A stretch of DNA of 64,000 nucleotides from a virus, in IMG/VR virus record IMGVR_UViG_3300036770_003326, positions 25,530-89,529 of that record; one strand, written 5' to 3'. Below are positions 43,992 to 46,452 of this stretch, one piece after another; the first letter of the stretch is position 1; every line of letters begins with the position of its first letter. The position numbers and the translations under genes are program-made. Under the pieces are notes generated by a model. That model was not told the DNA's origin and made no database searches. It saw only the letters and a program-made list of their open reading frames with translations.

Positions 43992-44471
43992 ATGGATTTT
44001 GATAATTTTTATAAATCCGATAAACTAAGATTTTATAAATTTTTTTTGAAAAGAGTTTTTGATAATGTAATAGCTGAAGATTTAACTCAAGATTTTTTTA
44101 TAAAAGTCTATTTAAATCTAGATAAATTTGATGATAATAAAGCTTTATGGGATGCCTGGTTATTTGTTATTGCTAGAAATATTTTAATAGATTACTATAG
44201 AAAAAATAAGTATTTATATAATTCTGTAAAAATAGATATAACTAGTATAGACTATCCTGTAGAGAATCATTTTAATGAAATGCTCGATGTATATAATAAA
44301 GAAATTAATAAAATAAGTAAGAAAAAAATAGATTGTTTTATTATGTTGTACGAAGGCTATAGTATAAAAGAAATTCAAAAAGCTTTTAATATATCAGAAG
44401 GAACTGTAAAAAGTAGAATATTTAAGTCTAGAGAAATTTTAAAAGAAAAACTAAAAGAATTTATAATATGA
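43992..44471 (+). CDS. ECF-type RNA polymerase sigma factor, 159 aa
   Basis: Region 2: FKRVFDNVIAEDLTQDFFIKVYLNLDKF, then WLFVIARNILIDYYRK (residues about 57-72), as in sigma-70 region 2. Region 4: FIMLYEGYSIKEIQKAFNISEGTVKSRIFKSREIL (about 115-150), a textbook region-4 helix-turn-helix. Two-domain build and length are those of ECF sigma factors. It could redirect host RNA polymerase to phage middle or late promoters. The next micro-gene overlaps its stop. Confidence 0.88.
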   Translation: MDFDNFYKSDKLRFYKFFLKRVFDNVIAEDLTQDFFIKVYLNLDKFDDNKALWDAWLFVIARNILIDYYRKNKYLYNSVKIDITSIDYPVENHFNEMLDVYNKEINKISKKKIDCFIMLYEGYSIKEIQKAFNISEGTVKSRIFKSREILKEKLKEFII

Positions 44472-44554
44472 AAGATTGTGGAAAAACTTTTATTAAAGCA
44501 AGCATAATAGGTATTCTTGCAGGTATTGCAATTGGCTATTTTATGTTTTGTTAA
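44468..44554 (+). CDS. Single-pass membrane micro-protein, 28 aa
   Basis: MKDCGKTFIKASIIGILAG begins a 28-residue peptide with one hydrophobic helix (residues 11-27) ending MFC. Its ATG overlaps the sigma-factor TGA. Its place directly after an ECF sigma recalls membrane anti-sigma genes, though this one is far too short to hold a known anti-sigma domain. Confidence 0.5.
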   Translation: MKDCGKTFIKASIIGILAGIAIGYFMFC

Positions 44555-44564
44555 AAAAATTAAC

Positions 44565-45464
44565 ATGAAAAAAATAAAAACATTTTATTCACCAAAACAA
44601 GTATGTCATAAAATGGACTCATCATTTTCTAAAAGTCCATTAAAACCATATCTTTTGATGAAAAAAATTAAAGAAAAAAATTATGATAAATATTTTGATC
44701 TACAAGAAAATTTTGAGCCTATAAAAAAAGAAGATTTTTTAATTGCACATACAGAAGAGTATGTAGATAATGTATTTAATAAAAAAGGTAATTATAGTAA
44801 TAATGGATTGCCTTGGAGTAACGAGTTAGTTAAAAGTTTACATTATACTACAGGATCATTATTAGCAGCTAAAAGATGGGCAATAGAATATCCTGAAGAA
44901 TTATGTTTTGCTCCTGTATCAGGTATGCATCATGCAAAGCCTCATACAGGATCAGGATATTGTACATTTTCAGGACAAGTTATATCTGCTATAAAGATTT
45001 ATCAAGAAACAGGTTTATCAGGAGCATATCTTGATTTAGATTGTCATTTTGGAAATAGTATTGAAGATACTTATGATTTTAATCCTTTACTAGAAAAAGC
45101 AATACCAAAAGGTTTTAATATAAATCCAGAAGGTTATAATGAAACTTACATTAAAAATTTTAAATCTAAGCTTGAATTATTAAAAAAAGAAATTTTAAAA
45201 AATAAAATACATTATGTAGTATTTGCTCATGGTGCAGATAGTCATACTGAAGATGATTTAGGAGGAAGATTAGATACTGAACATTGGATAAAAGCGGCAG
45301 AAGTTTTTGCTAATTGGGTAAATGATATATCAAAAGATTTAGGTAAGTCTTTGCCAGTAGTAATGTGTTTATTTGGGGGATATAGAAGAAATAATTATGA
45401 TTTTGTACTAGACTTACATATTATATCTTTATTAACTTGTAGAAGAATAATTTATAACTTATAA
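44565..45464 (+). CDS. Histone deacetylase-superfamily (AcuC/acetylpolyamine amidohydrolase-like) protein, 299 aa
   Basis: All catalytic elements of the arginase/deacetylase fold are present: SGMHHAKPHTGSGYC with the His pair at 122-123, YLDLDCHFG with zinc ligands Asp159 and His161, GADSHTEDDLG with zinc ligand Asp225, and FGGY with the transition-state Tyr273. The family removes acetyl groups from lysines or polyamines. The start at ATG 44565 avoids an upstream extension that would overlap the micro-gene. The substrate is unknown; acetylated host proteins or polyamines are candidates. Confidence 0.85.
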   Translation: MKKIKTFYSPKQVCHKMDSSFSKSPLKPYLLMKKIKEKNYDKYFDLQENFEPIKKEDFLIAHTEEYVDNVFNKKGNYSNNGLPWSNELVKSLHYTTGSLLAAKRWAIEYPEELCFAPVSGMHHAKPHTGSGYCTFSGQVISAIKIYQETGLSGAYLDLDCHFGNSIEDTYDFNPLLEKAIPKGFNINPEGYNETYIKNFKSKLELLKKEILKNKIHYVVFAHGADSHTEDDLGGRLDTEHWIKAAEVFANWVNDISKDLGKSLPVVMCLFGGYRRNNYDFVLDLHIISLLTCRRIIYNL

Positions 45465-45579: not shown

Positions 45580-46452
45580 ATGAGTTTAGTAAAAGTATTA
45601 AATAGAAAAAGTATGTTGATCAGACCTTCAGGTAGAAGTACTGATTTTATTAGTCCAAGTTTTGGTTTTGGCTGTTTGTATGACTGTTCTTACTGCTATA
45701 TGAAACGCCATAAACCTACTGGTTTAGACATAGCTACTAATACTGGAGATATTCTAACAGCTATAAATAATCATGCTTATTTTACTCCTGTAGATAAGCC
45801 TAATCAAACTCATGAGGTACTTACTACTTATGATATTTCTTGTAATGAAGATTTTGCTTTACATGCTAAACATCATGATTGGGAAAGAATTTTTGAATTT
45901 TTCAAAAAACATCCTCTTGCTATGGGTACCTTTGCTACTAAGTATGTAAATAAAAATCTTTTAAATTATAATCCTGAGCAAAAGATAAGAATTAGATTTA
46001 GTCTAATGCCTCAATCTTATGCAGATTTATTAGAACCAAATACTAGTAAAATAAATGAAAGATTAAAAGCAGTAAAAATGTTTCAAGCTGCTGGTTATGA
46101 AGTGCACTTAAATTTTAGCCCTGTAATTGTATGTTTTAATTGGTTACAAGAATATGAACAATTGTTTAAAGATGTCAGAGAGTACGCTATAACATATGAT
46201 TGGGATAATGATAGTGTCAAAGCTGAGGTAATATTTCTTACCCATAATAAATCTAAACATGAATATAATTTAGATAATAATATCTCAGGTGAAGAATTAA
46301 TATGGCGCCCTGACATTCAGGAAAATAAAACATCTCAGTATGGCGGAGAAAATCTTAGGTATGAACATAATTTAAAATCTCAGTATATAAAAGAATTTAC
46401 TGCACTTCATGATAAGATAATACCTTGGAATACAATTAGATATATATTTTAA
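45580..46452 (+). CDS. Radical SAM protein, spore photoproduct lyase-like, 290 aa
   Basis: The 4Fe-4S motif CLYDCSYC (Cys32, Cys36, Cys39) lies in GFGCLYDCSYCYMKRH, as in SplB-related enzymes. Downstream strands (ISCNEDFALH, FATKYVN, IRFSLMPQ, HLNFSPVIV) fit the partial TIM barrel. Family members repair spore-type thymine dimers or act on other nucleic acids. It stands among DNA-maintenance genes (UDG-like, MazG-like), so DNA repair or base modification is likely. Confidence 0.8.
   Translation: MSLVKVLNRKSMLIRPSGRSTDFISPSFGFGCLYDCSYCYMKRHKPTGLDIATNTGDILTAINNHAYFTPVDKPNQTHEVLTTYDISCNEDFALHAKHHDWERIFEFFKKHPLAMGTFATKYVNKNLLNYNPEQKIRIRFSLMPQSYADLLEPNTSKINERLKAVKMFQAAGYEVHLNFSPVIVCFNWLQEYEQLFKDVREYAITYDWDNDSVKAEVIFLTHNKSKHEYNLDNNISGEELIWRPDIQENKTSQYGGENLRYEHNLKSQYIKEFTALHDKIIPWNTIRYIF

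Follow-up and report, generated by a model that had tools for sequence, protein, structure and literature searches.

Bacteroidota phages probably acquired, several times over, the gene for an active Zn-dependent deacylase that is predicted to retain the chemistry of the host enzyme family. One copy lies in the 64,000-nt stretch of DNA analysed here (the window), which belongs to an 89,529-bp virus record (Table 1). Its reading frame starts with ATG at 44565, runs for 299 codons and stops at 45462-45464; an in-frame TTG at 44517 is a possible alternative start that is not conserved. The protein matches the Pfam family Hist_deacetyl (PF00850) with E=6e-21 and 75.5 bits (cut-off 27.9), which together with the fold match of its AF2 model bears out the initial annotation as an HDAC-superfamily enzyme. 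No model for the protein was found in PHROGs, NCBIfam or PADLOC. The deacylase of the near-identical phage L001 is 100% identical over residues 2-299, and this copy together with the purifying selection in related phage lineages shows that the gene is real. From its sequence, the gene is apparently intact in a crAss-like phage.

Table 1. Positions of the deacylase gene, its active-site codons and neighbouring genes (window coordinates unless a locus is named)
Feature	Position	Strand	Evidence
HDAC-superfamily Zn-dependent deacylase gene, 299 aa	44565..45464	+	PF00850, alignment, AF2 model, PDB matches
Catalytic double His codons H122-H123	44928..44933	+	conserved 77/77
Codons 157-164, DLDCHFGN	45033..45056	+	D157, D159, H161, N164 conserved 77/77
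Zinc ligand D225 codon, in HGADSH	45237..45239	+	conserved 77/77
Codons 270-274, FGGYR: catalytic Y273, family-invariant F270 and R274	45372..45386	+	77/77
ECF-type sigma factor, upstream	43992..44471	+	Sigma70_r2 E=1.7e-12; phrog_1740
28-codon hydrophobic ORF, start overlaps sigma stop (ATGA)	44468..44554	+	identical in L001
Spore-photoproduct-lyase-family radical SAM protein, downstream	45580..46452	+	Pfam SPL E=1.3e-21; TIGR03886
vWA / 380-aa neighbours, freshwater Bacteroidota	L043:3023-4162, L044:4177-4839, about 18 other loci	- (L043, L044); varying elsewhere	

Alignment to solved HDACs and 52 relatives assigned the catalytic set as H122, H123, D157, D159, H161, N164, D225 and Y273. Within the DLDCHFGN stretch, D157 and N164 make up the charge relay, and D159 and H161 are zinc ligands. 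Asn164 as the second relay residue is normal, since Graf et al. list Asn at this position for clusters 1, 3 and 4 (PMC11532494). No catalytic residue varies among the 32 full-length phage and 45 bacterial representatives; these residues include the two histidines, three zinc ligands and catalytic tyrosine first read from the window protein. The window protein is very probably catalytically active, judging from these residues.

The AF2 model, built from 52 sequences, has a mean pLDDT of 93.5 and matches solved deacylases over ~278 residues. Structural comparison with VIA-align 2 gave Z scores of 31.9 and 31.8 to V. cholerae HdaH (VcHdaH) and of 31.5 to Leptospira HDAC11. These top three matches are tied and are separated by a gap of ~4 Z units from the next ones, other bacterial and eukaryotic HDACs with Z scores of 27.7 and lower. 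Both VcHdaH and Leptospira HDAC11 belong to cluster 5/class IV in the published classifications (PMC11532494, PMC13325672). The best fold match, VcHdaH of cluster 5b (PDB 9gkv/9gky; PMC11532494; 278 residues, rmsd 2.3, 19% identity), has in common with the window protein the L2 PWS stretch, GGYR at the catalytic Tyr, the lack of an RPP motif and a length near 300 residues. However, the two are only 16-19% identical, and FGGYR, SGMHH and CTFSGQ in the window protein stand in place of GGGYR, GGYHH and CLFNDL. The best PDB sequence match is the class IV clade B enzyme HDAC11 of Leptospira interrogans (PDB 9gz5; PMC13325672; E=1.7e-10, or 8.9e-16 with a profile), and a bulky gatekeeper precedes the double His in both proteins. 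Whereas the Leptospira enzyme has the HPFD motif of HDAC11 and the clade B L2 glutamate (Glu84), the alignment places SPLKP and Gly81 at these sites in the window protein. Thus, although close to cluster 5, the window protein does not qualify as HDAC11 proper. By its predicted fold and its PDB sequence matches, the enzyme is cluster 5/class IV-like.

What is said here about pocket geometry, loop L2 and the foot pocket is based on the sequence alignment. The RPP triplet that robust deacetylases and polyamine deacetylases have before the double His is replaced (VSGMHH in the window protein, SGFHH or SGMHH in the family), and the XGGY motif reads FGGY. The absence of RPP, as in long-chain deacylases, a bulky Met/Phe gatekeeper that precedes the double His as it does in class IV clade B enzymes, and the ligands of the nearest structures (decanoic acid in VcHdaH, dodecenoic acid in Leptospira HDAC11) are consistent with a long- or medium-chain deacylase of the HDAC11/VcHdaH type, with fatty-acylated lysine or lipid-like amines as its substrates. 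However, the Phe of FGGY is bulky at a position that Graf et al. linked to the size of the foot pocket, and short acyl chains are favoured by basal class IV enzymes, that of Leptospira among them (PMC13325672). VcHdaH itself has only weak de-decanoylase activity (PMC11532494). A long-chain substrate is therefore possible but rather doubtful.

The predicted structure does not support AcuC and ApaH, which had been suggested as the enzymes for comparison: the nearest folds among the matches listed are of cluster 5/class IV, and the RPP motif is absent. Neither fold is among the 50 VIA-align matches listed, which by itself excludes nothing, and Foldseek lists ApaH from rank 10. The window protein has 299 residues vs. 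about 341-348 in ApaH chains, and no acu genes were found near the phage deacylase gene. An acetylpolyamine amidohydrolase (APAH) would free spermidine or putrescine from their acetylated reserves to neutralise packaged DNA or to support translation. Giant viruses encode an active APAH of the same superfamily (PMC9992855), and the family to which the window protein belongs is without the acidic L2 residue that grips peptides. The viral enzymes of that survey, which named ten APAH homologues, all from Imitervirales, are HDAC-fold proteins with demonstrated activity; however, they come from giant viruses of eukaryotes and are of the ApaH type with the RPP motif and dimer loops, unlike the window deacylase. 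Moreover, the RPPGHH motif is VSGMHH in the window protein, and polyamine deacetylases were confined to cluster 4 in the work of Graf et al., whereas the window protein is nearest to cluster 5. We consider a polyamine substrate distinctly unlikely.

Sequence comparisons of the 77 phage and bacterial representatives showed ~36 strictly invariant positions, many of them non-catalytic; besides the catalytic residues, these include S24, P25, K27, W84, G137, Q138, H222, F270, R274 and H285. The dN/dS ratio is 0.07-0.12 between related phage copies for the pairs below saturation, the two widest phage pairs in the set being near saturation at synonymous sites. The deacylase is under strong purifying selection in the phage lineages. 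This selection, together with the fixed gene order in phage lineages and the retention of the catalytic residues in 32 of 32 phage copies, makes it highly improbable that the gene is a neutral passenger from a recent host gene capture with no function for the phage, even though the gene content nearby is mosaic (window vs. L001 upstream of 41.8 kb).

Among bacterial and archaeal genomes, 83 relatives were detected, the closest of them in freshwater Bacteroidota assemblies (68-71% identity), followed by Flavobacteriales, Pontibacter, Rufibacter, Saprospiraceae, Myxococcales, Planctomycetes and Leptospiraceae. A single strong deacylase match is present in 12 of the 13 host genomes checked and two are present in the other. 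In both a careful tree of 58 rows and a quick tree of 77 rows, each with several long branches, the phage copies nest among the bacterial copies at several places. Well-supported branches force at least five (58-row tree) and at least six (77-row tree) changes of the phage label, which may represent gains, losses or phage-to-bacterium transfers. The window copy clusters with phages L009-L013 and the bacterial loci L016-L018 with support 100/99 in the 58-row tree. A contig in a bacterial assembly, L056, falls inside the large-phage clade; this contig, like some other copies recorded as 'bacterial', may be phage DNA that was binned wrongly. The nesting points to Bacteroidota hosts as the probable source of the gene.

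The terminase large subunit encoded by the window phage matches best that of Cellulophaga phage phi14:2 (Crassvirales, Steigviridae; 35% over 95%) and also those of many crAss-like phages, as does the capsid protein. The terminase and capsid matches identify the window as part of a crAss-like phage, which is from freshwater and presumably infects a Bacteroidota host. Between the sigma factor and the deacylase gene sits the 28-codon ORF, a possible membrane microprotein. The downstream radical SAM protein matches TIGR03886 with E=3.7e-91, a score below the model cut-off, and is followed by a uracil-DNA-glycosylase-similar protein (E=3e-20, far below the model cut-off) and a MazG-like protein. 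No PADLOC defence or anti-defence annotation matches the deacylase or its neighbours, and no match to the GNAT family PF00583, the one acetyltransferase family searched, was found in the 89.5-kb record. Comparison with L001 showed a recombination boundary at ~41825 of the window (L001:5254), from which the two phages are near-identical rightwards, starting at a RusA-like gene, and carry different genes leftwards. A specific linkage between the spore-photoproduct-lyase (SPL) gene and the deacylase was considered and rejected: SPL-like genes occur widely in phages from freshwater (255 loci), and among the best 80 of these loci a deacylase lies nearby only in the near-twin phage. SPL genes or fragments occur in a few other deacylase phages (L102/L010, L099, L145).

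The gene does follow a phage sigma factor of the ECF type, as the initial annotation had stated, and from this arrangement a role in transcription takeover had been proposed. However, relatives of the sigma factor were found only in the near-twin phage (L001/L098), where alone the adjacency recurs, and dozens of phages carry the deacylase without it. A sigma-deacylase linkage was thus rejected, and the takeover role is left unsupported. In a wider form, the enzyme would be a protein lysine deacetylase that removes acetyl groups from RNA polymerase, nucleoid proteins or metabolic enzymes of the host, together with the neighbouring sigma factor. Acetyl-lysine substrates have precedent in the superfamily, the sigma factor is encoded a short way upstream in the same orientation, and a comparable action has been suggested for phage sirtuins (PMC5107563). 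Besides the private adjacency, the acidic L2 residue with which class IV enzymes bind peptides is absent, and bacterial hosts carry the same enzyme, which is thus not phage-specific. Host takeover by this enzyme therefore appears unlikely. The targets put forward initially (RNA polymerase, HU-like proteins and polyamines) are conjectural.

The statement that such an enzyme is not a standard phage gene holds for catalogued phages, as there is no PHROG and only 7 of 50,697 GenBank phage records match. The gene is nevertheless not an isolated case: the family is carried by at least 34 groups at 95% identity (51 IMG/VR loci from a profile-guided scan of viral contigs and the GenBank huge phages). 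The best GenBank matches are uncultured huge phages of 735 kb and 636 kb (46-47% identity); the match is remote for Rhodococcus phage E3 and Microbacterium phage Magritte. E3 gp202 (HM114277), annotated as 'putative histone deacetylase', belongs to the same superfamily (hhalign probability 99.3), but this actinophage protein, at 25-27% identity, is outside the deacylase family defined here. The carriers range from crAss-like phages to phages of 250-735 kb, a few of which rank with the largest phages known. Of 20 deacylase contigs checked, 19 also encode a terminase, one being like that of the window, 4 Terminase_6C and 14 Terminase_6N. Thus, the carriers are genuine tailed phages that belong to several unrelated types and differ in size, up to 735 kb. 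The sheath family PF04984 is absent from the deacylase phage records searched, which says little, and no carriage on plasmids was found.

Fourteen large-phage lineages have one fixed gene order around the deacylase. In two of the large-phage lineages, DnaK-like and small-heat-shock-like genes (L137:4049-5917; L131:5503-5919) lie, by eye, immediately upstream of it. Other neighbours in the large-phage group (L111:8854-9051, L119:9913-10548, L131:7145-8203) start with short F..F..E-like leaders that by eye resemble T4-type capsid-targeting peptides, and a small GNAT-acetyltransferase-like protein (by eye) is encoded ~5.5 kb from the deacylase (L111:62-409, L113:119-466). A ClpS-like adaptor (L012:10744-11022; PF02617, E=1.5e-15) has homologues in the deacylase phages L002, L009-L011, L013 and L099. 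In the 595-kb phage LR756511, the coding sequence of a distant HDAC homologue (L005:5953-6863) changes frame near the zinc motif, which would reflect a sequencing error or a pseudogene.

The preferred reading, an active deacylase with host-family chemistry, may be set out as follows. A crAss-like phage would acquire the gene of a cluster 5/class IV-like Zn2+-dependent amide hydrolase from its freshwater Bacteroidota host. By analogy with the superfamily, D159, H161 and D225 would hold the metal, H122/H123 with D157/N164 would activate water, and Y273 would polarise the amide carbonyl, upon which the acyl group leaves the amine. Made in the infected cell, the phage enzyme would supply the deacylase activity of the host enzyme in extra amount or with different timing. 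That it does the job of the host enzyme is suggested by the invariant residues, both catalytic and non-catalytic, which are identical in the phage and bacterial copies. From these identities we infer that the phage enzyme is active on a host-like substrate, and they would not argue for a new phage-specific target. The substrate need not be a protein, because the L2 residue that contacts the peptide backbone (Glu84 in Leptospira) is Gly81 here; acyl-lysine in proteins and a small acylated amine are both candidates. Phages seem to use the deacylase repeatedly. A further suggestion, which we regard as speculative and unlikely, is that Bacteroidota phages captured this one narrowly conserved family again and again because infection of these hosts is restricted by an acyl mark on proteins or on a small molecule; the phage enzyme might, for example, undo a regulatory or defence system of the host that works by acylation. 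If true, the infection-limiting acyl mark would be a previously undescribed site of phage-host conflict.

The new element is a classical zinc-dependent deacylase family spread across unrelated tailed phages (crAss-like, Terminase_6-type, 250-735 kb). No report of this phage family was found in the open-licence literature, an absence that is not proof. The nearest published precedents are the giant-virus APAHs (PMC9992855) and the phage sirtuins (PMC5107563). The Sir2/CobB sirtuins of Vibrio schizoT4-like phages, T5 and others are also phage-encoded deacetylases, and were proposed to modify host proteins; however, their NAD+-dependent fold and chemistry are unrelated to those of the window deacylase. 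It becomes testable which acyl mark a phage gains from removing, and the enzyme can be compared in its phage and bacterial forms.

In 20 of the 43 nearer bacterial loci (L016-L058), a 380-aa protein is encoded within a few kb of the deacylase in varying orientations, and in nearly all 20 it is accompanied by a vWA-domain protein. Both partners are absent from the phage loci, and their association with the deacylase may be the key to its role in bacteria. No Pfam family matched the 380-aa protein. In its model (mean pLDDT 84), residues 1-224 resemble archaemetzincins (Z 13.6); an HExxH motif was not seen in the alignment, in which several Cys and His are kept. The C-terminal part shows a weak match to response-regulator-type DNA-binding domains. 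At one bacterial locus, a SIR2/CobB sirtuin-like gene (L018:5948-6655, by eye) lies directly 3' of the deacylase, so that two deacylase types adjoin.
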